A DNA stretch of 18,072 nucleotides from Aquificaceae bacterium (lineage in GTDB: Bacteria; Aquificota; Aquificia; Aquificales; Aquificaceae), in NCBI GenBank assembly GCA_026983685.1, contig JALSTO010000063.1:1-18072 (forward strand). The letters are read 5' to 3'. Positions 1-14,281 of the stretch are shown here, piece after piece. The translations under genes and the position numbers were made by a program. The stretch's first letter is position 1, and the number at the start of each line of letters is the position of its first letter. A model generated the notes under the pieces. It was given only the letters and a program-made list of their open reading frames with translations. It made no database searches and had not been told where the DNA came from.

Positions 1-1
1 C

Positions 2-82
2 ACACTGAAGAAGACAACCTCCGAAGAAGCGAAGAAACCTGAGGCGAAGAGAAGGAAGGCAAAGACCAGCAGGTCAGTATAA
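2..82 (+). CDS. Possible 3' end of an unidentified gene (Lys/Ala-rich tail)
   Basis: One plus-strand frame is open from the window edge to a TAA at 80-82. Its 26 visible residues are rich in Lys, Arg, Glu, Ala and Thr, with K-K-T-T, A-K-K-P-E-A-K and R-R-K-A-K segments. Basic low-complexity tails of this kind occur on some ribosomal proteins and other nucleic-acid-binding proteins, but no family can be named from this piece. It would converge on the ABC ATPase gene and overlap it by 9 bp (74-82), which matches the other convergent junctions of the window. A chance open frame of this length is possible, so the call is tentative. Confidence 0.45.
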   Translation, partial: TLKKTTSEEAKKPEAKRRKAKTSRSV

Positions 83-991: not shown

Positions 992-1012
992 CTACCCTTA
1001 TTCTTTCCTCCA

Positions 1013-2383
1013 TTATATAGTTCTTGAGAACCTGAGCTCCTTCTTCGCCTTTAGATGAGCATCAAAGACCATAGCCACGTTCCTTATGAGGAGCCTGCCC
1101 GCAGGGAGGATATCAATCCTCCTGTCCCTGACCCTTATGAGTTCATCCTCCTCAAGCTCCCTGAGGTTTTCAAGCTCTTCAGAGAAGTAATCCTCAAACC
1201 TTATACCGAAGAGCCCCTCTATCTTCTCAAAGCTCACACCGAGGTTGCACATTATGTCCATGATCACCTCTCGCCTTATGAAGTCGTCCTCTGTCAGGAC
1301 GTAACCCCTGTATACGGGAAGCCTTCCCTCATCAACCGCGAGGTTGTACTCCCTCAGGGTCTTGTAGTTCTGGAAGTAGGAGTCCTGAAGCATCCCTATG
1401 GATGTAGCCCCGAAGCCTATGAGCTCAACACCCTTCCTTGTCGTATAGCCCTGAAAGTTTCTCCACAGCTTTCCTTCCCTCTGAGCAACTGCAAGCTCGT
1501 CCTCTGGCTTTGCGAAGTGATCCATCCCTATATAGACGTATCCCGCATCCTGAAACTTCTCTATCACCATCTCAAGGATTGAGAGCTTTTCCTCCGCTTG
1601 GGGAAGGGTGTCCGGGTCTATATGTTTTTGGATCGGCTTGACCCATGGAACGTAGGCAAAGCTGTAAACCGCTATCCTGTCTGGGTTAAGTTCTATCACC
1701 TTCTCAACGGTCTTGGAAAAGCTGTCCCTCGTTTGATAGGGGAGTCCGTATATTAGGTCAAGGTTTATGCTCTGGAAGCCCAGAGCCCTGAGCTTTTCCA
1801 TCACATTCTTCATGAGCTCGTAGGGCTGTATCCTGTTTATAGCCCTCTGGACCTTTTCATCAAGGTCCTGAAGACCCATGCTTATCCTGTTAAAACCCAC
1901 GTCCCTTATAACCCTGAGTTGTTGGTCTGTTGCATACCTTGGGTCTATCTCAATGCTGATCTCAGCATCCTCAGAGAACTTAAACCTTTTCCTTATCTCA
2001 TTCATGAATTCTTCTATCTCGTTGGGCTCAAGGTAGTTGGGAGTTCCTCCTCCCCAGTGGAGCTGTTCAACCTCTCTGTCGGAGTCAAGCAGGGAGGAAA
2101 CCATGTCCATCTCTTTGTAAACCCTGTCAAGGTAAGGTCTCTCTATACCCTTTCTGTGGGAGATGATTATGTTACATCCGCAGTAATAGCACCCGCTTTC
2201 ACAGAAGGGTATGTGAAAGTAGAGGGAGAGAGGAGTCTTTCTCCTATTGCTCTCTATGAGGTGCTTCCTGTACTCCTCCTCACCCACGGACTCGGCAAAC
2301 TCCGTTGCGGGTGGATAGCTGGTGTACCTCGGACCCGGTCTATCGTATTTCTTTATAAGCTCTCTGTCAAAAACCGTTCTCAT
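1013..2383 (-). CDS. hemN: Oxygen-independent coproporphyrinogen III oxidase (dehydrogenase), HemN
   Basis: HemN is a cytoplasmic radical SAM enzyme that decarboxylates coproporphyrinogen III to protoporphyrinogen IX in haem synthesis without oxygen. With the chosen start the protein has 456 residues, about the length of E. coli HemN. The N-terminal segment [18 protein letters not shown] is characteristic of true HemN rather than the HemW paralogue. The radical SAM cysteines are C61, C65 and C68, with the extra Cys at C70 (motif [10 protein letters not shown]). The GGGTP SAM-binding motif is at 111-115, and the HemN C-terminal domain is present. The frame is open 23 codons further upstream, but that would run into the M50 gene and lacks family similarity, so ATG at 2381-2383 was chosen. 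Downstream of M50 by 31 bp; it may also have its own promoter in that gap. Confidence 0.95.
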
Positions 2384-2400
2384 GACCCTATTAAATATAA
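2384..2400 (-). promoter_or_regulatory. Candidate leaderless promoter of hemN
   Basis: Read on the minus strand, the 31-bp gap before hemN contains TATATT (2394-2399) and TTTAAT (2390-2395), then AGGGTC and the ATG. A -10 element at 2390-2395 would place transcription start exactly on the A of the ATG. AGGG could instead act as a weak ribosome binding site only 2 nt from the ATG, so read-through from the M50 gene is the alternative. No clear -35 was recognised. Confidence 0.35.
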
Positions 2401-2414
2401 GCTTTTTTCCCAGC

Positions 2415-3068
2415 TCACACCCCTCCAAGAATGAGCCGGTAGAGGAAGACAAGGGGTGGATAGATTATCCTTCCTAAGACGCCCGTAAAGAGGAGCACGG
2501 TTATAACGAAGAAGCCGTATATCTCATACTTATAGAAGAGTTCCCAGTATTTAAAGGACAGAAAGCTCATCAGAGCCTTGCTTCCGTCAAGGGGAGGTAT
2601 GGGTATTATGTTGAAGAGAGCAAGGATGAGATTTATGAGAACTGACTTAGTGCAGAATATCAGGAGTGGGTATATGATGGCGCTTGCTACAAAGGAATCA
2701 ACGCTGTCGGAGAGAGAGTAAAGGAACCTGTAAGCTAACCCGAAGGAGAGGGCAAGGGTCAGGTTCATCACAACACCCGCTATTGAGGTGAGAAAGGTTC
2801 CCATCCTAAGGTCCCTGAAGTTCAGGGGATTTATTGGAACAGGCTTTGCCCAGCCGAATATTATGGGAGAACCTAAAATTATGAACATAGCGGGGAGGAT
2901 AAGCGTGCCAAAAGGGTCAACGTGGGGTATGGGATTGAGGGTCAGCCTGCCTGCCATCTTTGCGGTCGGGTCTCCCATCCTGTAAGCCACCCATCCGTGG
3001 GCAACTTCGTGGAGGATTACGGCTATCATCAGGGCGGGGATCGTCAGGATGGCTTCGCTGAGGTTCAT
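2415..3068 (-). CDS. Site-2 protease-like M50 family membrane metalloprotease
   Basis: The 217-residue protein is almost entirely hydrophobic and looks like a small intramembrane zinc protease of the M50 family, with no PDZ or CBS domain. The zinc-binding motif HEVAH (20-24) lies in the first membrane segment. The second metal-ligand motif, in the N-x-(I/P)-P-x-x-P-L-D-G pattern, is at 153-162 with the Asp in LDG. The segment [14 protein letters not shown] and the following [16 protein letters not shown] are typical of the short bacterial subfamily found widely in thermophiles. The frame extends 27 codons further upstream into rimP, but homologues begin near the sequence MNLSEAIL, so ATG 3066-3068 was used. 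The substrate is unknown. It heads a minus-strand operon with hemN and the ABC ATPase, and its divergent neighbour is rimP, 25 bp away. Confidence 0.9.
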
Positions 3069-3093
3069 GCTACAAGAATTATAAAATATTACT
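3069..3093. promoter_or_regulatory. Divergent promoter between the M50 protease gene and rimP
   Basis: The whole spacer between two divergent start codons is 25 bp and AT-rich. On the minus strand a perfect TATAAT (3078-3083) would start transcription about 3 nt before the M50 ATG. On the plus strand TATAAA (3080-3085) would start it about 2 nt before the rimP ATG. The two hexamers overlap almost completely, giving a symmetrical bidirectional core. No Shine-Dalgarno sequence precedes either start. The -35 regions must lie inside the opposite gene; TGTTAA at 3101-3106 (minus strand, 17-bp spacer) is a weak candidate. Confidence 0.6.
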
Positions 3094-3567
3094 ATGAACA
3101 TTAACACCAAAGAGATCTCCCAGAGGGTTAAGGAGCTCGTTGAACCCATTGTCCGTTCAATGGGCTACAGGCTCTTTGATGTGGAGTTCAAACCCGAAAG
3201 GGGGTGGGTGCTCAGGGTGATAATTGATAAGCCCGGGGGCGTTACCATAAAGGATTGCGAGGAGGTGAGCAGGAGGATAGGTGCCCTCCTGGACGTTGAG
3301 GACCTGATCCCTTTTTCCTACATGCTTGAGATATCTTCGCCCGGACTTACGAGGGAGCTTGAGAAACCGGAACATTACGAGTTTTTCAAGGGAAGGCTAA
3401 TCAGGATAGTCCTTAGAGAGCCTGTAGGAGGGAAAAGGGAGGCTACCGGATATTTGGAAGAAGTTAAGGAAGGTATAATAACCCTGAAGGAGAGGGAGAA
3501 GGGAGAGCTACTTCACATACCCTTCTCTGCTATAGCAAAAGGAAGACTGGAGCCAGAGAGATGGTAA
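3094..3567 (+). CDS. rimP: Ribosome maturation factor RimP
   Basis: RimP is a cytoplasmic factor needed for maturation of the 30S ribosomal subunit. The 157-residue protein has the usual two-domain layout: an N-terminal alpha/beta domain with LVEPIVRSMGYRLFDVEF and a strand pair around LRVIIDKPGGVTIKDCEEVS, then the family hallmark LEISSPGLTREL (around residues 78-89), and a C-terminal SH3-like barrel. Length is normal for the family. It is the first gene of the plus-strand operon rimP-nusA-rlmD; its TAA stop overlaps the nusA start by 7 bp (ATGGTAA). No Shine-Dalgarno sequence precedes the ATG and the start codon lies about 2 nt after a predicted transcription start, so it may be translated from a leaderless mRNA. 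Confidence 0.95.
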   Translation: MNINTKEISQRVKELVEPIVRSMGYRLFDVEFKPERGWVLRVIIDKPGGVTIKDCEEVSRRIGALLDVEDLIPFSYMLEISSPGLTRELEKPEHYEFFKGRLIRIVLREPVGGKREATGYLEEVKEGIITLKEREKGELLHIPFSAIAKGRLEPERW

Positions 3568-4562
3568 AGAACATAAGAAGGCTAATAGAACAGGTGGCAA
3601 AGGAAAAGGACTTGCCCGAGAGGGTTGTTGAGTATGCCCTTAAGAACGCAATAGTTATAGCTGTAAAGAAAGCCAAGAGGATAAGGGAAAACCTTGATGT
3701 TGAGTTTACAGACGAGGGAATCAAGGTGTATATAGTTAGGGGAAAAGGAAAGAAGAAGGAACGTTTCCCCCTTGATATAAGCACGGAGGACATAAACAGG
3801 ATAGCGGCCTATGCTGCAAAGGAGGAGTTTCTGAACGAGCTTGAGAGGGCGGAGAGGGAAAGGGGATTTCTGGAGTACAAGGAGCTTGAGGGAGAGATAG
3901 TCACTGGTATAGTTCGCAAGATATATGAGAACGGCGATGTACTCGTTGATCTCGGTAAGGTTGAGGCTGTCCTCCCGAGGAGAGAGCAGATACCCGGCGA
4001 AAGGTACAATGTAGGAGACAGGGTGAAGGCGCTCCTGCTTGAGGTAAAGAAGGTTCACGGAGAGCCGAGGCTCATACTTTCAAGAACCCATCCCCTGTTT
4101 CTGAAGAGGCTCTTAGAGACAGAGATACCGGAGGTTGCGGAGAAGGAAATAGAGATAAAGGCGGTTGCCCGCATACCCGGTGAGAGGGCTAAGGTGGCGG
4201 TTCATGCAAAGGATATGAAGATGGATCCTGTCGGGATAGTGGTGGGTCTCAGGGGTTCAAGGATACAGCCTATATCTGAAGAGCTGGGCGGTGAGAAGAT
4301 AGATGTAGTCAGGTGGACCGAGGACGAGGAGGAGTTCATAAGGAGGTCTCTCTCCCCAGCCCAGCCGACAGCGGTGAGACTCATACCTGAGGAGGAGAGA
4401 GCGGAGGTTGCGGTTCCCCAGGAACAGCTCTCCCTCGCGATAGGCAGAAGGGGAACTAACGTTAAACTTGCCCACAGGCTGACGGGATGGCATATTGATG
4501 TAATGTCGGAGGAGGATTTTGAGAAGCTCACAGAGCTTAGAGAGTCAGGACAGGCTGAGTGA
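3561..4562 (+). CDS. nusA: Transcription termination/antitermination factor NusA
   Basis: NusA binds RNA polymerase and nascent RNA and modulates pausing, termination and antitermination. The 333 residues carry the N-terminal polymerase-binding domain (about 1-105), an S1 domain (about 108-175, beginning GEIVTGIVRKIYENGDVLVDL... in outline), KH1 with GLRG at 229-232 in DPVGIVVGLRGSRIQ, and KH2 with GRRG at 295-298 in LSLAIGRRGTNVKLA. The linker LSRTHPLFLKRL between S1 and KH1 is a family signature. There is no C-terminal acidic repeat, as in other short NusA proteins of thermophiles. It overlaps rimP by 7 bp, implying translational coupling, and its last 44 bp overlap rlmD. infB, the usual next gene in many bacteria, is not there. 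Confidence 0.97.
   Translation: MVKNIRRLIEQVAKEKDLPERVVEYALKNAIVIAVKKAKRIRENLDVEFTDEGIKVYIVRGKGKKKERFPLDISTEDINRIAAYAAKEEFLNELERAERERGFLEYKELEGEIVTGIVRKIYENGDVLVDLGKVEAVLPRREQIPGERYNVGDRVKALLLEVKKVHGEPRLILSRTHPLFLKRLLETEIPEVAEKEIEIKAVARIPGERAKVAVHAKDMKMDPVGIVVGLRGSRIQPISEELGGEKIDVVRWTEDEEEFIRRSLSPAQPTAVRLIPEEERAEVAVPQEQLSLAIGRRGTNVKLAHRLTGWHIDVMSEEDFEKLTELRESGQAE
4508..4521 (+). promoter_or_regulatory. Strong ribosome binding site and TTG start of rlmD inside nusA
   Basis: GGAGGAGGA at 4508-4516 lies within the nusA coding sequence and ends 2 nt before TTG 4519-4521; counted from its first GGAGG the spacer is 6 nt. No ATG or GTG occurs in the rlmD frame upstream of the conserved TRAM domain, so this site decides the start. 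Confidence 0.75.
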
Positions 4563-5832
4563 GGGTGAGAGTCTCCGTCTGACCATAGAGAAGCTCGTTT
4601 ACGGTGGATACGGACTTGCCCACCACAGAGACAAGGTGATAATGGTTCGCTTTGGGGCACCGCAGGAGCTCGTTGATGCCCAGATACTTGAGGATAGGAA
4701 GGACTATGCGGAGGCTCTGGTAAAGAGGGTGGTGATACCCTCAAGGTTCAGAAGGGAAGAACCCTGTCCCTATTACGGTGTGTGCGGAGGCTGTCAGCTC
4801 CAGCACATGGACTACGATGCTCAGGTCAGATCAAAGGAATCCATACTCCTTGAAACCCTTGAGAGGTTAGGCAGGATAAAGGAACCCAAACTCCTGGACT
4901 CGCTCAGGTCTGGTGATGAGTTCGGGTACAGGATAAGGGTTCAGTTCAAGGTAAAGAATGGGAAGCTTGGCTTTTTCAGGTGGGATGAGAAGGAGGTCGT
5001 TGACATAGATAGCTGTCCCGTCGCCCACCCGAGGATAAACGAGCTCATCGGTCCCCTTAAAGAGTATGCCCGCAACATAAAGGAGCTTCAGGAGATTCAC
5101 GTAACCTACTCCCCTTATGAAGACAGGTTTCTTGTGAAGTTCATCACTCCCATTGAGATAGACAGGGACTTTCTCAACAGCCTGAGGGAGGAGTTCCTTC
5201 CCAAAGAGGTCGTTGGTGTGGGAGACTACTCCCGCCTGAGAGGTTTCATGAACAGGAGGTTCTGGATAGGTACCGAGTACCTGTATATGAAGGTTGGAAA
5301 GTGGACCTACAGGGTCGGTGCAGACTCCTTCTTTCAGGTAAACTGGACTCTCTGGGAGGACTTCATTGAAGCGGTGGTGAGGGATGTTGAGTTCAAAAAG
5401 GCTCTTGACCTTCACTGCGGTGTAGGTTTCTTTACCATACCCCTTTCCGAGAGAGGCAACTTTATAGAAGGTTCGGATAGCAATGGCTTCGCCATAAACG
5501 ATGCCCAGTACAACGCAAAGCTCAATCACAGGGACAACGTAGTGTTCGTTAAGTCCGATGCCTTCAGGCACCTTAAAAGTAGGGGTGGTGAGGTTCTTGA
5601 CCTTGTAGTTCTTGACCCACCGCGGAGCGGTCTTGAGAAAAATGAGATAGAACTCCTCGTAAAGAACAAGCCCGAAAGAATAATCTATATATCCTGCAAC
5701 CCCTCAACTTTGGCGAGAGACCTTAGACAACTGCTTCGGGGAGGCTACACCCTTGAGGGGATCAGGCTCGTTGATATGTTCCCTCAGACCTACCACATAG
5801 AGAGCATAAGCTATCTTAGGGTTCAGGAGTAA
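4519..5832 (+). CDS. rlmD: 23S rRNA (uracil-5-)-methyltransferase, RlmD/RumA family
   Basis: This SAM-dependent enzyme makes 5-methyluridine in RNA; family members act on 23S rRNA (U1939 or U747 class) and some on tRNA, so the exact target is inferred. The 437-residue protein has an N-terminal TRAM-like domain (about 16-72, with YGGYGLA), a [4Fe-4S] cysteine set C83, C89, C92 and C166 (motif CPYYGVCGGCQ), a SAM site DLHCGVGFFTIP (297-308), DPPRSG (366-371), the catalytic Cys393 in SCNPSTLARDL, and the general-base region FPQTYHIES with Glu428. The start is TTG at 4519: it is the only ordinary start codon in the frame ahead of the TRAM domain and sits 6 nt after GGAGG within GGAGGAGGA (4508-4516). 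The gene therefore begins inside nusA, suggesting coupled translation. Its 3' end overlaps the convergent gene by 10 bp. Confidence 0.93.
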   Translation: MRSSQSLESQDRLSEGESLRLTIEKLVYGGYGLAHHRDKVIMVRFGAPQELVDAQILEDRKDYAEALVKRVVIPSRFRREEPCPYYGVCGGCQLQHMDYDAQVRSKESILLETLERLGRIKEPKLLDSLRSGDEFGYRIRVQFKVKNGKLGFFRWDEKEVVDIDSCPVAHPRINELIGPLKEYARNIKELQEIHVTYSPYEDRFLVKFITPIEIDRDFLNSLREEFLPKEVVGVGDYSRLRGFMNRRFWIGTEYLYMKVGKWTYRVGADSFFQVNWTLWEDFIEAVVRDVEFKKALDLHCGVGFFTIPLSERGNFIEGSDSNGFAINDAQYNAKLNHRDNVVFVKSDAFRHLKSRGGEVLDLVVLDPPRSGLEKNEIELLVKNKPERIIYISCNPSTLARDLRQLLRGGYTLEGIRLVDMFPQTYHIESISYLRVQE

Positions 5833-6248
5833 GAGAAGACGAACTTTCCCTTCTCTATCTCCTTTGGAGAGAGGACTACCTTATCCTCGGACATGAACTG
5901 CACGAATCCCTCTATCAGACCCATCAAGAAGTATATAATGGGTGACCTCTGAATGTCCTCAGCCCTTATAGCATCGCTGAATATGTCCTCCTGAACCACT
6001 ATGCTGGAGTTGTCCTTATCAACCTTCTTGGCGAATCCGAGCTCCTCAAGCATCATACAGGTTCTCCTGACAGCCTCCTCCTTGCTGAGGACCTCCGGAA
6101 GGTGTCCTATGAGGCTCTCCAGCAGTTTTGGTCCGCTGTGCCTCCCTGCATCCCTGAGAACGGCGTTAGCCCCCTTGTCTCCTATGAGGTTCCTGACCCC
6201 CTCAATCAGCTCAACCATGGCTATGAGCAGTATGTCCGGGTCAACCAT
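5823..6248 (-). CDS. Unrecognised 141-residue protein with V4R-like features
   Basis: No family is recognised with certainty. The protein is soluble, with no signal peptide or membrane segment. Its pattern resembles small V4R / haem-NO-binding-type ligand domains: an N-terminal helix pair, GDKGANAVLRDAGRHSG (23-39), a helix-rich middle, a strand with SSIVVQEDIF (81-90), and a late LMGLIEGFVQFMSEDKVVL segment followed by FVFSYS, where V4R proteins usually end in G-x-x-x-C-x-F. The cysteines used by metal-binding V4R members are missing (only Cys64 is present), so it would be a ligand- or partner-binding variant if the resemblance is real. It lies 18 bp after the unknown gene at 6267-6788 with AAGGGGGTG as ribosome binding site, so the two are one operon. 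It overlaps rlmD by 10 bp at the 3' end. Confidence 0.8.
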   Translation of the reverse strand: MVDPDILLIAMVELIEGVRNLIGDKGANAVLRDAGRHSGPKLLESLIGHLPEVLSKEEAVRRTCMMLEELGFAKKVDKDNSSIVVQEDIFSDAIRAEDIQRSPIIYFLMGLIEGFVQFMSEDKVVLSPKEIEKGKFVFSYS

Positions 6249-6266
6249 AACACACCCCCTTAAAAG

Positions 6267-6788
6267 CTACCTCAAATCAAGAATCGGAAAGACAGCCTTC
6301 CCTTTGAGCTGGACAAAGTCCGTAACTATGCTATAGGTGTCCTTCAAGGTGTAGAAGGCGTCAAGGATGCTCCTCTCAAAGTTCTTCTCAAGACTTCTTA
6401 TCATGTAATCAACATCCCTCATCTTTATGAGCGCCACACCCGACCATCTCTCCTTTACCATCCCCACGGTGACGTTGACCCTGTTGAAGAAGGTGAGCAA
6501 ACCCTCCTTCGTCAGTGTGCTCCCGGCGTCCACGAGGAGGACATCGTTACCCCTGAGCTTCCTGAGTCCCTTGTAGGCACCGAAGACGGAGCTGTCCCTG
6601 ACATTATTGATGAAGCATACTTCGGGAAATTTGTCAAACATATCCTTGAAGTGAGAGCTAACGGAGGCGTAAATGCTGTCAATTCCGATAATCCTTGTCA
6701 GAAGGGATATGTTCTTTTCAAGCTCCGTATAGAGCTTCTCCTTTCCCTCTTCAAGAAGACCCGAGTAGAGTAGTAAGAGAGCTTTCAT
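6267..6788 (-). CDS. Unrecognised 173-residue protein, possible degenerate nucleotidyltransferase (GT-A) fold
   Basis: The product is not recognised firmly. Its pattern matches the order of a MobA-like/NTP-transferase fold: a first strand KALLLLYS, a second region IDSIYASVSSHF, a strand CFINN (58-62), the helix SSVFGAYKGLRKL, a strand DVLLVDAGSTLT (82-93) in the place of the usual L-D-G-D metal-binding motif, then GMVKERWSGVALIKM (109-123), and a C-terminal FPILDLR where such enzymes have a D-I-D-T motif. The N-terminal glycine-rich L-A-A-G-x-G-x-R loop that binds the nucleotide is absent and the D-G-D is D-A-G, so catalysis is doubtful. First gene of a two-gene operon with the V4R-like protein; the divergent neighbour is waaA, 20 bp away. 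Confidence 0.8.
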   Translation of the reverse strand: MKALLLLYSGLLEEGKEKLYTELEKNISLLTRIIGIDSIYASVSSHFKDMFDKFPEVCFINNVRDSSVFGAYKGLRKLRGNDVLLVDAGSTLTKEGLLTFFNRVNVTVGMVKERWSGVALIKMRDVDYMIRSLEKNFERSILDAFYTLKDTYSIVTDFVQLKGKAVFPILDLR

Positions 6789-6808
6789 ACTATAATTCTA
6801 AAACATAT
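6789..6808. promoter_or_regulatory. Divergent promoter between the unknown pair and waaA
   Basis: A 20-bp AT-rich spacer separates the two ATG codons. The plus strand has a perfect TATAAT (6791-6796), predicting a transcript starting near 6803, about 6 nt before the waaA ATG. The minus strand has TAGAAT (6795-6800), which would start transcription exactly on the A of the other ATG (6788). The hexamers overlap. Neither start has a Shine-Dalgarno sequence. No good -35 hexamer was found on either side. Confidence 0.55.
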
Positions 6809-7888
6809 ATGGGCTTGCGTCTCAGGGATAGGATATATCCGGGGAAAATCCAGTTGAGCTCTGACTCCCAGCCCCTCTGGGTTCACTGTGCGAGCGTCGG
6901 AGAGTTCAACACCTTCAAGCCCATATTGAGGGAGCTCCGTAGAAGATACCCCGTGGTTCTTACTTACTTCTCACCGAGGGCTGAGGAGTTCCTGAGCTCG
7001 GGCTCTACCCTCTACGATGCCCTTTACCCCTTACCCCTTGACCTTCCTCCCCTGATCAGAAGGTTTGAGTCTATTGTCAGACCGAGGGCTATAATCATAG
7101 TTGAGAGGGAGCTCTGGCCTTCCCTGCTGATGTCCACCCGCTCTAAAAAAATTCTGGTAAATGCTTACGCTAAGGAGAGTTTTCTGGAAAGGCTTTTGGT
7201 CAGGAAATACTCCCTTATCCTCGCAAGAAGTGAGGAGGATAGGGAGCTCTTTGAGAGAGAAGGAGCTAAGAGGGTCGTTGTCTGCGGAAACCTGAAGCTC
7301 GTTCAGGAGGGAAGCCCTGAGAAGATAGAGCTCGGGATAGGTGAGGAGTGCAGGCTCCTTGTGGGTGGTAGCACGAGGGAGGGGGAGGAGGAGCTCCTTC
7401 TGAGGCTCTTTGCTGAGCTAAGGTCCTCCTTTCCCCTCAAACTGGTTCTTGCTCCGAGGCACGTTGAAAGGGCTGAGGAGGTTCACAGGCTTGCCCAGAG
7501 CATGGGCTTTAAAACCAGCAGGTGGAGTTCACCCGACCCTAAATGGGAGGTCCTCATAGTTGATACCCTCGGAAAACTCAGGTCCTTTTACGAACTTGCG
7601 GATGTCACCTTCGTAGGCGGAACCTTCTCTTCCGTCGGTGGTCACAACCTCATTGAACCCGCCTACCTCGGGAAGCCTGTTGTCTTCGGTCCAAGGACCC
7701 ACAAGGTGAAGGATATGGAAGAGCTACTCCTGAAAGAGGGCTACGGGTTCAGGGCTGAGAACTACGGGGAGCTCAAGAGGATAGTAGAAAAACTCCTCAG
7801 GGAGGGCTTCAGGCCAGCGAGAGACCTTAAATCTCATTCCGTAGAGGTCAAGAGATGTTACCTTGAGAACTTACTGGCTGAGCTTTAA
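6809..7888 (+). CDS. waaA: 3-deoxy-D-manno-octulosonic acid (Kdo) transferase, WaaA/KdtA
   Basis: WaaA transfers Kdo from CMP-Kdo to the lipid A precursor at the inner membrane. The 359-residue protein starts MGLRLRDRIYPGK and soon reaches LWVHCASVGEFNTFKP, where Glu32 corresponds to the catalytic Glu of the Aquifex aeolicus enzyme. Other signatures are LTYFSPRAEEF, VERELWPSL, ILVNAYAKES, the Rossmann-fold turn LAPRHVERAEEV and the donor-site segment GGTFSSVGGHNLIEP. The usual N-terminal transmembrane anchor of proteobacterial WaaA is absent, as I recall for the A. aeolicus protein. The frame is open 38 codons further upstream through the neighbouring gene, but that stretch is unlike WaaA, so ATG 6809 was chosen. 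No Shine-Dalgarno sequence is seen. Its 3' end overlaps the convergent ArsC-like gene by 18 bp. Confidence 0.95.
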   Translation: MGLRLRDRIYPGKIQLSSDSQPLWVHCASVGEFNTFKPILRELRRRYPVVLTYFSPRAEEFLSSGSTLYDALYPLPLDLPPLIRRFESIVRPRAIIIVERELWPSLLMSTRSKKILVNAYAKESFLERLLVRKYSLILARSEEDRELFEREGAKRVVVCGNLKLVQEGSPEKIELGIGEECRLLVGGSTREGEEELLLRLFAELRSSFPLKLVLAPRHVERAEEVHRLAQSMGFKTSRWSSPDPKWEVLIVDTLGKLRSFYELADVTFVGGTFSSVGGHNLIEPAYLGKPVVFGPRTHKVKDMEELLLKEGYGFRAENYGELKRIVEKLLREGFRPARDLKSHSVEVKRCYLENLLAEL

Positions 7889-8272
7889 AAGCTCCCTTAT
7901 GTGCTCCTCAATTATCTGTAAGGTTTTTCTGAAGGAGTCTTCCCTCTTATCAGGCTCGTCTATAAGCCAGTTCTCCCTGCGCTTGTGAGCCAAGGTGAAC
8001 TCACACTTTTCCCTTGCCTCGTTGCACATCGTTATGAGCACATCTATCTTCCCGTAGGGTATCTTCTCAAGGGGTTTGGGATGAAGCCCTTCCGTAGGGT
8101 ATCCCTTCTCCTCAAGTACTTTCAGGGTTAAGGGATGAGCCTCCTTCCGGGGCTCTGTGCCTGCGGAGAAGACCTCAACCTTTATACCCATGCTGGAGAG
8201 AAGATGGCGCGCTACAGCTTCAGCCATCAGGCTCCTGATCGCATTACCTCTGCTTACAAAGGCTATCTTCAT
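7871..8272 (-). CDS. ArsC / low-molecular-weight phosphatase-fold protein lacking the nucleophile Cys
   Basis: The 133-residue protein has the overall sequence of thioredoxin-coupled arsenate reductases. The anion-binding loop, normally C-x-G-N-x-x-R-S, reads SRGNAIRS with Ser7 (codon AGC) in place of the nucleophilic Cys. The rest of the ArsC machinery seems kept: AGTEPRKEAHPLTLKVLEEKG, the redox pair Cys83 and Cys90 in MCNEAREKC, and Asp105 in WLIDEP at the general-acid position. It could be an inactive oxyanion-binding protein, a weak Ser-dependent enzyme, or a regulator. The ATG at 8270-8272 was chosen because family members begin at MKIAFV; an in-frame ATG six codons earlier overlaps the lpxB start. 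It is divergent from lpxB (16 bp apart) and has no other arsenic-resistance gene beside it. Confidence 0.88.
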   Translation of the reverse strand: MKIAFVSRGNAIRSLMAEAVARHLLSSMGIKVEVFSAGTEPRKEAHPLTLKVLEEKGYPTEGLHPKPLEKIPYGKIDVLITMCNEAREKCEFTLAHKRRENWLIDEPDKREDSFRKTLQIIEEHIRELLKLSQ

Positions 8273-8288
8273 GGTCTTTAATAATATC
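8273..8288. promoter_or_regulatory. Divergent promoter between the ArsC-like gene and lpxB
   Basis: Only 16 bp separate the two chosen start codons. On the plus strand TTTAAT (8277-8282) would start transcription on the A of the lpxB ATG, with CTTACA (8253-8258, 18-bp spacer) as a possible -35. On the minus strand TATTAT (8281-8286) would start it about 2 nt before the ArsC-like ATG. No Shine-Dalgarno sequence is present on either strand. Hexamers this AT-rich can arise by chance, so the case rests on the same layout recurring at the other divergent pairs. Confidence 0.5.
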
Positions 8289-9416
8289 ATGCCCCGCAGG
8301 CTCTTCCTCTCGGTCGGAGACCTATCCGCTGCTAACTACCTGTGGGAGATACTGAGGGAAGGCTTTGATAGGTATGAGCTTGTGGGGATAACAGATGAAG
8401 GGCTTGAAAGCCTCGGTGTTAGGAGCGTTGCAAAGATCTCCCAGATATCGGTGGTGGGTCTTGCGGAGGTCCTGCCGAAGCTCCTTGAGATAAAGAGAGT
8501 ATTCTCCCGGGTGGTGGAGGAGCTGAAAGAGTGCGACGTCCTGATAGCCTGCGATGCTCCAGGCTTCAACCTGAGGCTCATAAAGGAGGCAAGAAGGCTC
8601 GGTGTGAAAAGGGTAATATACTTTATCTCTCCTCAGGTCTGGGCTTGGAAGCCAAAGAGGGCTGAGACTATAGCCAAGTACTCCGATCACCTTATAGTCA
8701 TACTTCCCTTTGAGATAGGGTTCTACAGAAAGTATGAGGGGAAGGATTTTAAGGTTCACTACGTAGGACATCCCCTCGTTGATATGGTCTCCCCAGGAGT
8801 TGGAGAGGAGGAGTTTCGCTCCGTACTTGGTCTTTCCTCAGGGAGGATAATCAACCTTATGCCCGGTAGCAGGTGGGGAGAGATCAGAAGGCACACACCC
8901 CTTCTCAGAGGGGTCTTGAGCCAGCTCCTTGAGGAGCACAAAGACCTCTCCTTTGTCCTGCCCACCTTTGAGGAGTTCAAGGAATTTCTCTCGGAGAGCT
9001 TTGATAACCTTCCTGTAAAGATTCTGACCGCTAAGGATTTGGAGAGACCCGCCTACAGCTCTATGTTTCACTCGGAGCTTTCCCTGATAGCCTCTGGCAC
9101 CTCCTCCCTTGAAGCAGCCATTGCAGGAAATCCCCACATCGTCTTTTACAGGGTGAACCCCATCACATACATCTTGGCTAAGCTCCTCGTCAAGGTTCCC
9201 TACGTCAGCCTTCCCAATCTCATACTGAAGAGGGAAGTCGTCCCGGAGATGATAAACACCCCCCCTGAGGAGATAGCCTCACAGGTTAAAGAGCTCCTGA
9301 AAAGCGACAGAAAAAGGGAGCTTATGAGAGAGGAGCTCACGGGTGTCAGGGAGCTCTTGGGCGGGAGCGGTTCCCTCCAGAGGCTCAGAGAGCTCTTCCT
9401 TGAGCTCACAGGTTGA
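8289..9416 (+). CDS. lpxB: Lipid-A-disaccharide synthase LpxB
   Basis: LpxB joins UDP-2,3-diacylglucosamine and lipid X to form the lipid A disaccharide, a peripheral inner-membrane step. The 375-residue protein shows CDAPGFN (88-94, the D-x-P-x-F-N motif with the catalytic Asp89), YFISPQVWAWKPKR (111-124), VGHPLVD, the P-G-S-R motif at 192-195 and the donor-site segment SGTSSLEAAIAGNPHIVFYR. The N-terminal loop normally G-E-x-S-G-D is G-D-L-S-A-A here (10-15), a mild departure. ATG 8289 places the start directly before the first strand RRLFLSVG, as in the family; upstream in-frame ATGs lie inside the divergent gene. The transcript is predicted to be leaderless. Its TGA stop overlaps the -35 element of the next gene. 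Confidence 0.94.
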   Translation: MPRRLFLSVGDLSAANYLWEILREGFDRYELVGITDEGLESLGVRSVAKISQISVVGLAEVLPKLLEIKRVFSRVVEELKECDVLIACDAPGFNLRLIKEARRLGVKRVIYFISPQVWAWKPKRAETIAKYSDHLIVILPFEIGFYRKYEGKDFKVHYVGHPLVDMVSPGVGEEEFRSVLGLSSGRIINLMPGSRWGEIRRHTPLLRGVLSQLLEEHKDLSFVLPTFEEFKEFLSESFDNLPVKILTAKDLERPAYSSMFHSELSLIASGTSSLEAAIAGNPHIVFYRVNPITYILAKLLVKVPYVSLPNLILKREVVPEMINTPPEEIASQVKELLKSDRKRELMREELTGVRELLGGSGSLQRLRELFLELTG

Positions 9417-9441
9417 CTTGTCCATCTCCCTTTCCCATACT
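9413..9441 (+). promoter_or_regulatory. Sigma-70-type promoter of the NosL-like membrane protein gene
   Basis: TTGACT (9413-9418) and CATACT (9436-9441) are separated by exactly 17 bp, with the -35 overlapping the lpxB stop codon. Transcription would begin near 9448, one base before the ATG at 9449-9451. The 32 bases between the lpxB stop and this ATG are pyrimidine-rich and hold no Shine-Dalgarno sequence, which fits a leaderless mRNA. Confidence 0.65.
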
Positions 9442-9448
9442 TTTTAAC

Positions 9449-10081
9449 ATGTTTAAGGAAACAACCATCCTGATAGTGCTCAGCAGGGTCGTTGAGTTTC
9501 TCGGGATAATAACCACCATATTCCTCATGTTCAAAGGCTACAAGCTCAGATACGTCTTCCTCGTCGGGGGTGTTGTTGTCCTGAGCCTTGTGGTAAGCGT
9601 CCTCGGCCTCTTTGCAAAGGAGTACCTTGAGTACATAGCTCTCACAGACCTGTTGCTCACAGCATCGGTTCTTGGGGGAGTCGCCTTCTATGTCAGCAGG
9701 CACCCCGAGAGGACCAAGGATTTCACCCCTCCAGAGAACTGCAGGTGTCCCGTGTGCAACGTCCTGATAGTGAACGAGGACGAGCTCTGCACCATGAAGA
9801 TAGGGAACTACACCTACTACTTTGACACCTGCGACCACATGATAAAGCTCCTTAAAGAGGCTGACTTCTTTCTTGAGAAGAAGGACCTCCCCGGCGGGGA
9901 GGTTAAGGATATATACGTAAAGGCTAAAGATACTGGAAGGTGGAGGAAGATAGAGAACGTCAAGGTGGTTGAGGAGGGGGGAACTTACAGGGCTTACGAG
10001 AAGGCGGACGGCAAGGAGGTCCTTGACTTAGAGAAACTCCTGGAGAGCTTCAAGGACAAGCTCAGGAGGAGGAAGGGTTAG
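9449..10081 (+). CDS. Three-TM protein with a Cys-rich NosL/TRASH-like domain
   Basis: The 210-residue protein has three predicted membrane segments (about 5-29, 34-56 and 63-82), then a soluble domain. That domain opens with C98-R-C100-P-V-C103, continues with Cys114 in DELCTM and the stretch GNYTYYFDTCDHM (Cys128, His130, Met131), and ends with KDIYVKAKDTGRWRKIENVKVV. This order (C-P-x-C near the start, an aromatic strand before a Cys/Met pair, then D-x-x-t-G-x-W) recalls NosL and TRASH-type metal-binding domains, so copper or zinc binding is a reasonable inference, not a demonstrated one. The frame is open back to a TTG at 9413, but those residues are unlikely to be translated given the promoter there. 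It follows lpxB by 32 bp and overlaps the convergent glycosyltransferase gene by 54 bp. Confidence 0.85.
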   Translation: MFKETTILIVLSRVVEFLGIITTIFLMFKGYKLRYVFLVGGVVVLSLVVSVLGLFAKEYLEYIALTDLLLTASVLGGVAFYVSRHPERTKDFTPPENCRCPVCNVLIVNEDELCTMKIGNYTYYFDTCDHMIKLLKEADFFLEKKDLPGGEVKDIYVKAKDTGRWRKIENVKVVEEGGTYRAYEKADGKEVLDLEKLLESFKDKLRRRKG

Positions 10082-10975
10082 GCACTCATAGGTACCTGTT
10101 TTACACCTCTTGGGATTCGGGGAGCAGGGCGAACAACCCGCAGGATTGTCTATATAAGAGCCTATGAGTGGATAGAAGCCGTATTTAGAGGAGGTCGCTG
10201 TGTAGATTGTCAGGGCTGGAACACCGAGGGCGTTCGCTATGTGAACGGGTGAAGAATCGTTGGACACGACGAGCTTTGCTCCTCCTACAACAGCCATGAG
10301 CTCCCTCAGGTTCGTCCTACCAACGAGGTCCTTGAAAGAAGCCCTTCTCTTTAGCTCCTCAGCCTTATCCCTGTCGGAGGGAAGCCCGGTGACAACAACC
10401 TCAGCCTTAAGACCTGCTATGAGCCTTTCCCAATTCGCAATGCTCCACTCCTTGAGGGAGAAGTTTGAAAAGGGATTTACCACGACGTAGCCCTTCTCTT
10501 CTAAACCGAATCTCTTAAGTGTCTCTCTCTTTTCCTCCTCTCCGAGGGGAAGGAATGTTTCCCTAACGAAGTTCTTCACACCGAGGGGTTTCAGGAGCTC
10601 AAGGTTTCTGTCAATCTCATGGAGCTCCCAGCGGTGGGGAACTATGTGGGTGAAAGCCCACCTGAACTCAGACCTGTCAAAGCCGATCCTGACCGGTATC
10701 CTTGAAGAAAGGATTATGAGGGCTGTCCTCATGGACCTGTGGGGCACGAGGGCTACATCAAACCCTCTTAACCTTTTTAATATTGTGAAGCTCTCAAAAA
10801 ACCCTTTACCAAAAGGGACAAGCCCTATGTCCCATCCCCTGAAGAGCTCCCTTATGAAGGGTCTGCCGGCGAAGAAGACCTCAGAATCGGGAAAGTTCTT
10901 CCTTACACTCCTTATCAGAGGAGTTGTCAGTATTACATCCCCGAGGTATGCGGTTTGCCAGATTAAGAACCTCAA
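10028..10975 (-). CDS. Glycosyltransferase family 9 (ADP-heptose:LPS heptosyltransferase-like)
   Basis: Family 9 enzymes add heptose to the lipopolysaccharide inner core on the cytoplasmic side of the inner membrane. The 315 residues begin FLIWQTAYLGDVILTTPLI, with Asp13 at the catalytic-base position, and include the acceptor-domain stretch VALVPHRSMRTALI, the donor-domain opening VVVNPFSNFSLKEWS, and SNDSSPVHIANALGVPAL, equivalent to the G-D-(T/S)-G-P-x-H motif of WaaC/WaaF. A Cys cluster (CSPCSPNPKRC then C) near the C terminus is common in WaaF-like proteins. The start is TTG at 10975, overlapping the TGA stop of the upstream lipoprotein gene by 4 bp (TTGA), with GGGTGAGGA just before it. 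Whether it is heptosyltransferase I, II or another sugar transferase cannot be told. Its last 54 bp are antisense to the NosL-like gene. Confidence 0.9.
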   Translation of the reverse strand: MRFLIWQTAYLGDVILTTPLIRSVRKNFPDSEVFFAGRPFIRELFRGWDIGLVPFGKGFFESFTILKRLRGFDVALVPHRSMRTALIILSSRIPVRIGFDRSEFRWAFTHIVPHRWELHEIDRNLELLKPLGVKNFVRETFLPLGEEEKRETLKRFGLEEKGYVVVNPFSNFSLKEWSIANWERLIAGLKAEVVVTGLPSDRDKAEELKRRASFKDLVGRTNLRELMAVVGGAKLVVSNDSSPVHIANALGVPALTIYTATSSKYGFYPLIGSYIDNPAGCSPCSPNPKRCKTGTYECLTLPPPELVLEALQEFL

Positions 10976-11418
10976 TCCTCACCCACAGGCTTCGGTGGAG
11001 CGTAGGGGGTTATGTCCGCGATCAGCCACCTGTCACCTTCCTTTATCAGGACGAAGCTGAAGAGTTTCTCAATACCACTTTTGTCGGTTATACTCACCTT
11101 AAGGAGCGCCGTCCTGTCCCCTATGAGCTTACCCTCCCTTACCTCAAACTCATCTATGTTAGCTCCCATCGTGCTCAGCACACAGGCAAGAACCTCGGAA
11201 GGCTTCATCTCGGTGAACTGAACGGGAATCCTAATGTCCTTAATAAGTCCGTCCCTGAAGGAGGGGTGGAGATATCTGAGAGCTTCCTTACCTTCCTTTT
11301 CCTGAATCTCATCAAGGAACTCCTCCGCCACATCCTTTGCCTTGTTGTAAGGCTCACCGCAGGACTTGAGGACAAAGAGGAGGGCTACTCCAAGTAAGGC
11401 AAGGACTAACTTCCTCAT
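10972..11418 (-). CDS. Small lipoprotein with an NTF2/DUF4878-like domain
   Basis: The 148-residue protein starts MRKLVLALLGVALLFVLKSC, a lipoprotein signal peptide with Cys20 as the likely lipidated residue; Lys at -2 makes the lipobox (LKSC) less than ideal. The mature part reads like a small NTF2-fold domain of the lumazine-binding/DUF4878 type: KDVAEEFLDEIQEKEGKEALRYL... in outline, then a paired-strand region ALLKVSITDKSG and a final VLIKEGDRWLIADI. No enzymatic residue is evident; such proteins are usually periplasmic or membrane-tethered with unknown roles. It precedes the GT9 gene with a 4-bp overlap, so both are one operon, and it is divergent from pntAA with 16 bp between. ATG 11416-11418 was chosen because it begins the signal peptide and lies exactly where a TATAAT predicts transcription start. 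Confidence 0.85.
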   Translation of the reverse strand: MRKLVLALLGVALLFVLKSCGEPYNKAKDVAEEFLDEIQEKEGKEALRYLHPSFRDGLIKDIRIPVQFTEMKPSEVLACVLSTMGANIDEFEVREGKLIGDRTALLKVSITDKSGIEKLFSFVLIKEGDRWLIADITPYAPPKPVGED

Positions 11419-11434
11419 GCTAAAATTATACACC
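11419..11434. promoter_or_regulatory. Divergent promoter between the lipoprotein gene and pntAA
   Basis: This 16-bp spacer is the clearest of its type. On the minus strand TATAAT (11425-11430) with TTGAGA (11449-11454) 18 bp upstream forms a near-consensus promoter whose start falls exactly on the A of the lipoprotein ATG; the -35 lies within pntAA. On the plus strand TAAAAT (11421-11426) would start about 2 nt before the pntAA ATG, with no convincing -35. Neither gene has a Shine-Dalgarno sequence. Confidence 0.65.
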
Positions 11435-12586
11435 ATGCTTATCGGCGTTCTCAAGGAAAGGTACCCCAACGAGAAGAGGGTCTCCCTCGTCCCCTCAGAG
11501 GTAGCTAAGCTACTCAAGAAAGGTGCGGGCATCCTCGTTGAAAGGGGCTCAGGAGAGGCTGCGGGTTTCAGTGACGAGGAGTACGCGCAGGCTGGTGCGG
11601 AGCTTGTAGAAAGGGCTGAGGTCTTTGATAGGGCTGATATACTCCTCAAGGTAAGGGACCTGATGGCTGACAGGGATAACTTCCTTCAGGAGGCAGAAAA
11701 GTACAGGGGTAAAACCATCATAGGCTTCCTTGAACCCTTCAGTGTTGGCGATATATATGAAAAAGTCAGGGAACTTAAACTGACAGCCTTTGCGATGGAG
11801 CTCATCCCGAGGATAACGAGGGCACAGAGTATGGATGCCCTCTCATCAATGGCAACGGTTGCGGGTTACAAGGCTGTACTTATCGCTGCCAATATGCTCC
11901 CCAAGATGTTCCCTATGCTTATGACTGCAGCTGGAACTGTTCTTCCCGCCAAGGTCTTCGTAGTGGGGGCGGGAGTTGCCGGTCTTCAGGCTATAGCCAC
12001 CGCCAAGAGGCTCGGGGCTGTGGTTCAGGCTTACGATATAAGACCTGCGGCTAAGGAGCAGGTTCTCTCTCTCGGTGCCAAGTTCGTTGAGCTCGGGCTT
12101 GAGAGCGAGCAGGCTGAGGACAAAGGAGGCTACGCAAAGGCTATGGATGAAGAGTTCTACAGAAGACAGAGGGAGATGATGAAGGAGGTCGTGGGAGAGA
12201 GCGATGTGGTGATAACAACCGCCATGGTGCCGGGAAAGAGGGCTCCCGTCCTGATAACCGAAGACATGGTGAAGGGGATGAGACCTGGCTCCGTTATAGT
12301 GGACCTTGCCTCTGAGAGGGGAGGAAACTGCGAGCTCACCGTTCCCGGAGAGGTTGTAGAGAAATACGGTGTGAGGATAGTAGGGGCTGTGAACCTTCCC
12401 TCTCAAGTGCCCCACGATGCCAGTCAGATGTATGCGAGAAACGTTGTGAACTTCCTCAGCCTTATCCTCAAGGACGGAGAGCTGAAGATTGACACCGAGG
12501 ATGAGATAGTCAGAGAGACCCTCCTTTTCAAGGAGGGTGAGCTTGTCAGTGAAAGGATAAAGGAGTTTGTAAGCGGAGGAGGTTGA
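11435..12586 (+). CDS. pntAA: NAD(P) transhydrogenase subunit alpha 1 (NAD-binding domain I), PntAA
   Basis: This is the soluble NAD(H)-binding subunit of proton-translocating transhydrogenase, which moves hydride between NADH and NADP+ using the proton gradient. The 383 residues start MLIGVLKERYPNEKRVSLVP, as in the alanine dehydrogenase/PntA family, followed by MELIPRITRAQSMDALSSMA (121-140) and the NAD-binding fold with GAGVAG (178-183) and AYDIRPAAKEQV (199-210). VIVDLASERGGNCE and NLPSQVPHDASQMYARN are further family marks. It ends after domain I with no membrane helices, so alpha is split as in several thermophiles. The upstream extension of the frame was rejected because ATG 11435 matches the family N terminus. 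It overlaps pntAB by 1 bp (TGATG). Confidence 0.96.
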   Translation: MLIGVLKERYPNEKRVSLVPSEVAKLLKKGAGILVERGSGEAAGFSDEEYAQAGAELVERAEVFDRADILLKVRDLMADRDNFLQEAEKYRGKTIIGFLEPFSVGDIYEKVRELKLTAFAMELIPRITRAQSMDALSSMATVAGYKAVLIAANMLPKMFPMLMTAAGTVLPAKVFVVGAGVAGLQAIATAKRLGAVVQAYDIRPAAKEQVLSLGAKFVELGLESEQAEDKGGYAKAMDEEFYRRQREMMKEVVGESDVVITTAMVPGKRAPVLITEDMVKGMRPGSVIVDLASERGGNCELTVPGEVVEKYGVRIVGAVNLPSQVPHDASQMYARNVVNFLSLILKDGELKIDTEDEIVRETLLFKEGELVSERIKEFVSGGG

Positions 12587-12867
12587 TGGAAGACTTCGTT
12601 ATGTACTTTACCATCTTCGTGCTCTCCATGTTTGTGGGCTTTGAGGTCATAACAAAGGTCCCCCCCACCCTTCACACACCCCTCATGTCTGGCTCAAACG
12701 CCATATCGGGGATAACTATAGTTGGGGCTTTGATATCTGCTGGTTCTGGACACTCACTCCTCACTACAGCTCTCGGTTTAATAGCCCTGGTCTTTGCAAC
12801 CATAAACGTCGTGGGCGGGTTCCTCGTAACCCACAGAATGCTTGAGATGTTCAGGAGGAAGGACTGA
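12586..12867 (+). CDS. pntAB: NAD(P) transhydrogenase subunit alpha 2 (membrane), PntAB
   Basis: The 93-residue protein supplies the membrane helices that in E. coli form the C-terminal part of PntA. Three hydrophobic segments are visible, around 5-20, 38-55 and 60-80. The conserved stretch VPPTLHTPLMSGSNAISG carries His30, a good candidate for the protonatable residue of the channel because PntB has Asn where the E. coli subunit has its key His. The ATG at 12586 overlaps the pntAA stop by 1 bp and lies 6 nt after GGAGG (12575-12579 in GGAGGAGG); a TTG just upstream at 12583 is a less likely start. It sits 2 bp before pntB in a tight operon. Confidence 0.95.
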   Translation: MEDFVMYFTIFVLSMFVGFEVITKVPPTLHTPLMSGSNAISGITIVGALISAGSGHSLLTTALGLIALVFATINVVGGFLVTHRMLEMFRRKD

Positions 12868-12869
12868 TA

Positions 12870-14243
12870 ATGGAGAAGGTTGCAGTCAACTTAGCCTACC
12901 TTCTGTCAGCATCCCTGTTTATCTTCGGGCTTAAGGGTCTCTCCCACCCGAGAACCGCTGTTCGGGGGAACATGCTCGGTGCCCTCGGGATGCTCATAGC
13001 GGTAGTTGTAACCCTCCTTGACAAGAGGATAGTGGACTTCTCGGTGATAATAGCCGGTCTTATTCTGGGGGCTATCATAGGAACATTTTTAGCCCTCAAG
13101 GTTGAGATGACAGCCATGCCCCAGCTCGTTGCTATCTTCAACGGTCTCGGGGGTGGTGCCTCCACCCTCGTAGCGGGTTCAGCCCTTTACGAAAGCCCGA
13201 GCATTGATAAGCTCTTCCTCTCTGCCTCCGTCGCTTCGGGAATAGTTGGTGCGGTCACCTTCTTCGGTAGCATGGTCGCTTTTGGAAAGCTTCAGGGATT
13301 GATAAACGAGAGACCACTCAGGTACCCGGGTGAGCAGGTGGTAAAGGCACTCTTTGGTCTCAGCGCCCTCGGTCTCGGTGCCTACTTGGTAGCCAGTCCT
13401 GAAAATCTGGGCTTGTACTGGCTTATAGTTGCCCTCTCTTCGGTTTTGGGAGTTCTGCTTACCATAGCCATAGGCGGAGCGGACATGCCCGTTGTGATAG
13501 CCCTCCTGAACTCATATTCAGGTCTTGCTGCCGCAGCAACGGGATTTGTGCTCCAGAACAACGCCCTGATAATCTCAGGCTCTCTCGTCGGTGCCTCGGG
13601 GATAATCCTGACAAACCTTATGTGTAAGGCTATGAACAGGTCTCTCCTGAACGTCCTCTTTGGAGGCTTCGGGGAGGTCGCCCAGACTTCCGAGGAGGAC
13701 ATATACGCAGGAAAGGTCAAGGCTACGAGCCCGGAGGAGGTTGCCCTCCTGCTTGAGGGCGCGAGAAGGGTGGTGATAGTTCCCGGTTACGGGATGGCGG
13801 TTGCCCAAGCCCAGTATGCGGTCAGGGATCTTTACAACCTCTTGGAGTCAAAGAGCGTTGAGGTTGAGTTCGCCATCCACCCCGTTGCTGGAAGGATGCC
13901 CGGGCACATGAACGTCCTCCTTGCGGAGGTTGACATACCCTACGAGAAGATGAAGGAGCTTGAGGAGGTAAACCCGACCTTTGAGCAGACCGATGTTGTC
14001 ATAGTTATAGGTGCGAACGATGTGGTAAACCCCCTTGCCCAGACGGACCCCAAGAGCCCTATAGCGGGTATGCCCGTCCTTGAGGTCTGGAAGGCGAAGA
14101 CAGTGGTCGTTATAAAGAGGAGCCTGAGCCCAGGATTTGCGGGGATTCCCAACCCGCTCTTCGCTATGGACAACACCCTGATGCTCTTTGCTGATGCAAA
14201 GAAGGCTGTTCAGGAGATAGTGAACGCCCTGAAGGAGGGATAA
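12870..14243 (+). CDS. pntB: NAD(P) transhydrogenase subunit beta, PntB
   Basis: PntB has the membrane domain and the NADP(H)-binding domain III. Of 457 residues, about 1-265 form a series of roughly eight to nine hydrophobic helices, and about 285-457 are domain III. Domain III shows VPGYGMAVAQAQYAVRDL (304-321), AGRMPGHMNVLLAEVDIPY, IGANDVVNPLA (380-390) and KRSLSPGFAGIPNPLF. In the membrane part, MPQLVAIFNGLGGG places Asn91 at the position of the E. coli beta-His91 proton-pathway residue. SD-like AGGAGGAAGG lies just ahead of the ATG within the pntAB end. It works with PntAA and PntAB to supply NADPH. lon follows after 35 bp. Confidence 0.97.
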   Translation: MEKVAVNLAYLLSASLFIFGLKGLSHPRTAVRGNMLGALGMLIAVVVTLLDKRIVDFSVIIAGLILGAIIGTFLALKVEMTAMPQLVAIFNGLGGGASTLVAGSALYESPSIDKLFLSASVASGIVGAVTFFGSMVAFGKLQGLINERPLRYPGEQVVKALFGLSALGLGAYLVASPENLGLYWLIVALSSVLGVLLTIAIGGADMPVVIALLNSYSGLAAAATGFVLQNNALIISGSLVGASGIILTNLMCKAMNRSLLNVLFGGFGEVAQTSEEDIYAGKVKATSPEEVALLLEGARRVVIVPGYGMAVAQAQYAVRDLYNLLESKSVEVEFAIHPVAGRMPGHMNVLLAEVDIPYEKMKELEEVNPTFEQTDVVIVIGANDVVNPLAQTDPKSPIAGMPVLEVWKAKTVVVIKRSLSPGFAGIPNPLFAMDNTLMLFADAKKAVQEIVNALKEG

Positions 14244-14251
14244 GGATACTA

Positions 14252-14281
14252 TATACTTAAAACCAGAGGAGGTCAGGATTG
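14252..14281 (+). promoter_or_regulatory. Candidate lon promoter, ribosome binding site and TTG start
   Basis: In the 35-bp gap after pntB, TATACT (14252-14257) could act as a -10 with a start near 14264; no clear -35 was seen, so read-through from pntB is equally possible. GGAGGT (14268-14273) is a full-strength ribosome binding site, 5 nt before TTG 14279-14281. The first in-frame ATG (14291) would be 17 nt away, too far, so TTG is preferred. Confidence 0.55.

Follow-up and report, generated by a model that had tools for sequence, protein, structure and literature searches.

Short divergent spacers with overlapping −10 hexamers in Aquificaceae: candidate bidirectional promoters of leaderless gene pairs

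How can two genes that point away from each other both be expressed when 16 to 25 bp separate their start codons? The question is raised by an 18,072-nucleotide stretch of an Aquificaceae bacterium (assembly GCA_026983685.1, contig JALSTO010000063.1, positions 1 to 18,072 of the forward strand; hereafter the window), in which gene calling finds four divergent pairs and no others, separated by spacers that we call A, B, C and D. With a probability of about 0.77, we consider these spacers to be −10-only bidirectional sigma70 promoters, each serving two leaderless or near-leaderless genes. Two overlapping −10 hexamers would make up essentially the whole of a single sigma70-type bidirectional promoter in each spacer; RNA polymerase would bind and melt one AT-rich box in either orientation, one polymerase at a time and to the exclusion of the other; transcription would start about 7 nt past each hexamer, on or a few bases from each start codon; and both genes would be translated from mRNAs that have little or no leader and lack Shine-Dalgarno (SD) sites. 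Because leaderless starts need no 5′ untranslated region (UTR), the intergenic region could then be reduced to roughly the box itself and the two stretches between it and the transcription start sites (TSS, or +1).

Spacer A (3069-3093, 25 bp) lies between an M50 peptidase gene on the minus strand and rimP on the plus strand; TAAAAT at 3082-3087 (plus) and TATAAT at 3083-3078 (minus) overlap at TA to form ATTATAAAAT, with +1 predicted at 3094 (plus) and 3071 (minus). Spacer B (6789-6808, 20 bp) separates a gene for a 173-aa protein from kdtA, and its TATAAT at 6791-6796 (plus) and TAGAAT at 6800-6795 (minus) overlap at AT as TATAATTCTA, predicting +1 at 6803 (plus, a 6-nt leader) and 6788 (minus). 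In spacer C (8273-8288, 16 bp), between a low-molecular-weight phosphatase or ArsC-like gene and lpxB, a weak TTTAAT at 8277-8282 (plus) meets TATTAT at 8286-8281 (minus), with +1 predicted at 8289 (plus) and 8274 (minus). Spacer D (11419-11434, 16 bp), between a DUF4878 gene and pntA, carries TAAAAT at 11421-11426 (plus) and TATAAT at 11430-11425 (minus), overlapping at AT as TAAAATTATA, with predicted +1 at 11433 (plus) and 11418 (minus). An earlier reading made from the sequence alone (the sequence-only reading) had given the same four spacer sizes, overlapping −10 hexamers facing both ways in every spacer, and leaders of 0-6 nt; all of this holds, including the fit of the hexamer positions to the leader lengths, with two corrections. 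For rimP it had chosen TATAAA, but the best forward hexamer is the TAAAAT at 3082-3087, which places +1 on the start codon; the forward TTTAAT it had assigned to lpxB is present but scores 3.9 bits and is not a match to TAnnWT.

Warman, Grainger and co-workers define a bidirectional promoter by two TSSs that diverge from opposite strands at a distance of 7-25 bp. Counting 7 bp from the −10 hexamer to +1, the hexamer registers predict TSS distances of 23 bp in A and 15 bp in B, C and D, and the opposite-strand −10 elements overlap in all four spacers, with the lpxB side weak and the kdtA hexamer outside the scored range. At seven of the eight genes, including the weak lpxB hexamer at 12 nt, a TA-like box stands at the distance expected of a leaderless gene (first T about 12-15 nt upstream); the kdtA TATAAT stands at 18 nt, beyond the 11-17 nt that were scored, where the forward score of spacer B is only 1.0 bit. 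Dinucleotide shuffles match both observed scores in 10 of 2000 trials for A, 9 of 2000 for D, 279 of 2000 for C and 308 of 2000 for B (scored without its TATAAT at 18 nt). Thus A and D are improbable by chance, while B and C are not significant alone and are supported by conservation.

As the sequence-only reading had claimed, the eight genes lack SD sites, with a GGAG, GAGG or AGGA core in the last 20 nt before the start codon in 0 of 8. Their leaderlessness is predicted from sequence. The companion claim, that genes inside operons do carry SD sites, holds for nusA, rlmD, pntAB, pntB and lon and fails for a hemN-like gene, the gene at 5823-6248 (GGGGG only) and the 9449 gene, so it describes a tendency only.

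The sequence-only reading had further proposed that the layout recurs consistently within this compact genome, naming genome-wide spacer lengths and a comparison across relatives as checks. We ran the spacer statistics on samples of 20 × 20 kb from each of five relatives, four of them Aquificaceae (4 × 400 kb) and the fifth the Hydrogenothermaceae-like G036, whose sample includes 5,000 N; genes were called with a purpose-written caller, and divergent pairs with one start past the end of a stretch were excluded. Spacers of 14-30 bp account for 16 of 61 in G004, 11 of 56 in G007, 11 of 46 in G024 and 15 of 58 in G019, together 53 of 221, with 4 of 221 at 0-13 bp and 8 negative, at least some of the negative ones being CATG start errors. 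When starts were called a second time with upstream signals voting, the count became 61 of 221, but this pass is partly circular, and the first-pass value is used here. With the same caller, this class comprises 1 of 40 spacers in G036 (Fisher p = 0.001 versus Aquificaceae), 0 of 28 in 200 kb of E. coli (p = 0.001) and 2 of 23 in 200 kb of Thermus thermophilus pTT27 (Fisher p = 0.12, not significant). The assembly of the window (1.48 Mb in 338 contigs, 84.6% complete) yielded six divergent pairs in 97 kb, four of them those of the window, and five of the six (first pass) or all six (second pass) have spacers of 16-25 bp. The layout is therefore wider than one genome, being present in all four Aquificaceae genomes sampled, and short divergent spacers with shared −10 boxes are, on these four genomes, a trait of Aquificaceae.

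The leaderless signal extends beyond divergent pairs. In G004 and G007, TAnnWT is most frequent at 12-15 nt before starts, and a three-class mixture model of the four Aquificaceae genomes places 33-40% of genes in a class led by a TA-like box (TA-led; first T of TATAAT mostly 12-15 nt upstream) and 44-51% in an SD-led class. Within divergent pairs at most 30 bp apart, the model makes 112 of 130 genes TA-led and 3 SD-led. In G036 the ‘TA’ class converged on another pattern, not TATAAT, and is not counted as leaderless. The main text of Zheng 2011 reports TAtaaT about 10 bp before start codons and leaderless shares averaging 26.5% (20.7-32.4) in two of five Aquificae genomes, with a logo for Aquifex aeolicus (PMC3160421); our TA-led share is in line with that study.

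Conservation among relatives was read from a comparison set of 17 genomes of the window's genus and 64 of its family, the window's own counted in both, with core counts taken by eye in alignment rows that hold both genes. At spacer A, ATTATAAAAT is kept in all 15 same-genus rows with the M50 partner (two further same-genus rows lack M50), and the length is 25-27 bp in 14 of the 15, the remaining row being split by an insertion. TATAATTNTA is kept in 14 of 14 rows at spacer B, whose length is 19-24 bp in 13 rows and 33 bp in one; the start of one row is unsettled. Spacer C has a less uniform core; its length is 16 bp except in one of the 12 rows, where it is 17 bp. Both the core and the 16 bp length of spacer D persist in 8 of 8 same-partner rows, and the core is also found in four of five rows with another neighbour. 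Across the same-genus rows used for the conservation test (A 14 of 17, B 14 of 18, C 12 of 16, D 8 of 13), the −10 core positions are near-invariant, and the flanking third codon positions have mean pairwise identities of 0.31-0.58. In this comparison, lengths are mostly kept, and the A, B and D cores are fully kept in same-partner rows of the genus.

The hexamers also overlap in a restricted set of ways. By inspection, TATAAT and its reverse complement are compatible at TSS distances of 15 (TAnnATnnTA), 18, 21 and 23 bp, and 22 of 29 scored pairs use these registers (7, 5, 2 and 8 pairs, respectively), the remainder lying at 11 bp (1), 13 bp (2), 16 bp (3) and 29 bp (1). Two exactly leaderless mRNAs in the 15-bp register would leave a spacer of 14 bp, which agrees with where the observed length distribution begins. 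These registers follow from the symmetry of the hexamer itself, and we count this as new.

That symmetry is also the basis of the alternative that survives best, namely that every spacer drives just one gene, as a directional leaderless promoter, the reverse hexamer being a by-product of TATAAT, which is nearly self-complementary, and the other gene being transcribed from elsewhere or weakly. Given a forward box, a reverse box does occur in 17 of 86 short tandem spacers; it is however commoner in close divergent spacers (29 of 43; Fisher p = 1.8e-7). Of 56 close pairs (10-30 bp), 29 reach 4 bits or more in both directions, where dinucleotide shuffles give an expectation of 5.6. At A, B and D, moreover, both hexamers have conserved outer bases, which argues against a one-sided promoter. 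Several points nevertheless weigh against bidirectional, leaderless promoters, and some of them favour the one-sided alternative. In the two rows where M50 is absent (L009 and L010), the reverse box at rimP still scores 6.1 and 6.8 bits, so that the decay expected of a reverse hexamer without its partner is not seen; spacers B and C are weak by score, each on one side; and 27 of the 56 close pairs fall under 4 bits on one side or more. The gene starts come from a purpose-written caller that errs in both directions, and no 5′-end map of any Aquificaceae species was found in the literature searched. Avoidance of TTG as a mark of leaderless starts was considered and dropped, the difference between TA-led (10 of 537) and SD-led genes (26 of 736) being too small. 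Weighing these points, we regard one-sided promoters as an unlikely explanation.

The bidirectional reading describes promoters made essentially of −10 elements, and here one claim of the sequence-only reading was not supported: its −35 regions inside the opposite genes left no overall signal in either third-position conservation or a TTGACA scan. Third-position identity averages 0.41 over codons 2-12 and 0.40 over codons 13-42, with no overall excess near the start; it is greater near the start in three of eight comparisons, clearly so only in pntA (0.58 versus 0.36), whose codons 2-12 are where the −35 of the DUF4878 gene would lie and are the sole region excepted from the missing signal. 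TTGACA-like hexamers are not enriched at spacings of 16-18 bp before the 76 genes of close pairs, where these three spacings together hold 12 against a mean of 3.0 per spacing; a count of 9 at spacing 15 is the maximum and a second exception. Among tandem genes separated by more than 13 bp, counts peak at spacing 17 (12 of 93, mean 4.3). The standard two-hexamer sigma70 arrangement, with a −35 element at 16-18 bp from the −10, is accordingly not found overall in close pairs, pntA excepted. An extended −10 (TGn) was also considered and rejected, since base frequencies show no G excess beside the hexamer in close pairs.

Ordinary compaction would dispense with such promoters: the true starts would lie further in, real 5′ UTRs with ribosome sites would be hidden inside the called genes, and the short spacers would be annotation artefacts. 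Mechanical start calls are indeed sometimes misplaced, as for pair D, called on the first pass as an overlapping CATG, and pair B of G007, called as 107 bp; but spacer lengths are mostly conserved in relatives and homology extends to the first codons in most rows, and we hold this explanation to be very improbable. It is just as hard to credit that the core is the binding site of a dedicated regulator or alternative sigma factor rather than a housekeeping −10, as its strong conservation and dyad symmetry might suggest, given that the same TATAAT consensus leads the TA-led genes of the four sampled Aquificaceae genomes, non-divergent ones included.

The divergent partners of these boxes change among relatives. 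Where pntA retains the core TAAAATTATA, its divergent neighbour is a DUF4878 homologue in eight rows, a GT9 heptosyltransferase in two (L196, L199) and an ABC ATPase in two (L197, L198); the spacers of L196-L199, at 24-25 bp, imply predicted leaders of 8-9 nt. In L201, a fifth row with another neighbour, the upstream side differs and the core is absent. pntA was found in 13 of the 64 family genomes, all within the window's genus, which suggests that the transhydrogenase operon (11435-14243) was acquired. At rimP, a GH114 glycoside hydrolase gene (L004 1982-2779) has been inserted in G004 between M50 and rimP; it begins on the old core, with 30 bp between its start and that of M50, and a new TAAAAT before rimP overlaps the stop codon of the insert. 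The swap of partners on a retained core at pntA and the insertion that appears to use the old core at rimP are new.

In other genera a TATAAT-like box usually still precedes rimP, and the divergent neighbour varies (it was chosen as the best by a rough coding score, with one model for all, and families were checked for L232, L238, L022 and L253 only). It is a MoxR-like ATPase gene in 5 of 5 g6 rows (17-31 bp) and, at 36-39 bp and with two separate boxes, in 7 of 8 g17 rows. G023 has M50 at 44 bp, g2 and g3 have a weakly matched protein at 34-39 bp, and 2 of 4 g16 rows have RsmI at 48 bp; no convincing divergent neighbour was recognised in the g4 (Aquifex) and g9 rows. lpxB is divergent in the window's genus. 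In 22 of 26 rows from other genera of the family it lies 0-12 bp behind a same-strand gene or overlaps one, and its 16 bp divergent promoter therefore looks like a later arrangement. Because of this turnover at pntA, rimP and lpxB, we propose tentatively, and with more doubt than confidence, that the symmetric −10 box serves as a plug-in site in Aquificaceae: an open reading frame whose start comes to lie about 12-25 bp away on the other strand would gain a promoter and a translation start at once, partners would be swapped while the box stays, and this route would have made about a quarter of divergent pairs. The cases behind this proposal are few.

The flanking genes themselves are mostly recognisable by family. 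On the minus strand lie the M50 peptidase gene (2415-3068; PF02163), the gene for the 173-aa protein (6267-6788), which matches nothing in Pfam or NCBIfam and has homologues next to kdtA in 14 pair-B rows, one of which is the window's, the phosphatase or ArsC-like gene (7871-8272; PF01451) and the DUF4878 gene (10972-11418; PF12870). On the plus strand are rimP (3094-3567; NCBIfam RimP models, all of those shown under their curated cut-offs), the Kdo transferase gene kdtA (6809-7888; PF04413), lpxB (8289-9416; PF02684) and pntA (11435-12586; NF006942, 424.9 bits versus a cut-off of 383), which heads pntA-pntAB-pntB, the latter two names being taken over from the sequence-only reading. All eight are leaderless candidates except kdtA, which is a near-leaderless one.

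Two further observations concern starts in the window. The DUF4878 start codon (CAT, 11416-11418) overlaps an in-frame ATG upstream of pntA at 11417, giving the CATG within 11416-11437; mechanical gene calling takes this ATG as the pntA start, and in relatives the same reading appears as gaps of −2 bp. If the promoter reading is confirmed, annotators should note that in-frame upstream ATGs within such boxes, like that at 11417, are probably outside the transcript. The 31 bp at 2384-2414 separate the M50 gene from the hemN-like gene downstream (start 2383), which lacks an SD core and has TATATT 16 nt before its start, possibly marking a leaderless promoter within a tandem run.

The bidirectional promoters described in E. 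coli and Salmonella by Warman, Grainger and co-workers, most often tied to mRNA synthesis (PMC12825309), likewise have a near-symmetric −10 read both ways and a poor −35 (PMC12825309, PMC10268837). TSS distances of 18 and 23 bp are common there too, while the third common E. coli distance, 10 bp, is absent from the 29 scored Aquificaceae pairs (PMC12825309). Unlike those of E. coli and Salmonella, the Aquificaceae pairs have start codons at the predicted TSSs and use the 15-bp register (TAnnATnnTA) as one of their two commonest; no link to leaderless genes was found for the enteric promoters in the available text, and the word ‘leaderless’ is absent from that of PMC10268837. The leaderless genes of Zheng 2011 have the same TA-like box upstream; shared divergent boxes were not found in the main text of that paper, nor were the words ‘divergent’ or ‘bidirectional’ (PMC3160421). 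A genome comparison of Aquificales shows Pribnow-box motifs; in its available text ‘leaderless’ is absent and the only mention of a transcription start site concerns 6S RNA (PMC4227106). No description of a genome layout in which pairs of leaderless genes share boxes was found in the literature searched (titles and abstract openings, with few subscription journals).

Thermus may share the layout. pTT27 likewise has a TAnnnT peak, 12-13 nt upstream of starts, and, of its two close divergent pairs, the one formed by cobT and a gene for a histidine phosphatase has a 26 bp spacer (L204 42512-42537) in which TAnnnT boxes at 12 and 16 nt overlap as AGCTTACCCT. Given this pair and the non-significant difference in spacer counts, we could not maintain that Thermus lacks it.

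What Aquificaceae present is thus a new and recurrent combination of known parts, bidirectional −10 elements and leaderless genes; the layout is real and conserved, it is common in the four genomes of the family that were sampled, and the proposed mechanism is well supported by sequence. If it is correct, two genes would be governed by little more than one box of 8-10 bp, nearly as small a divergent regulatory unit as leaderless geometry permits. Such pairs would offer a natural test for competition between polymerases at bidirectional promoters, would show how leaderless translation permits genome shrinkage, and would provide a concrete route for the origin of new divergent gene neighbours.

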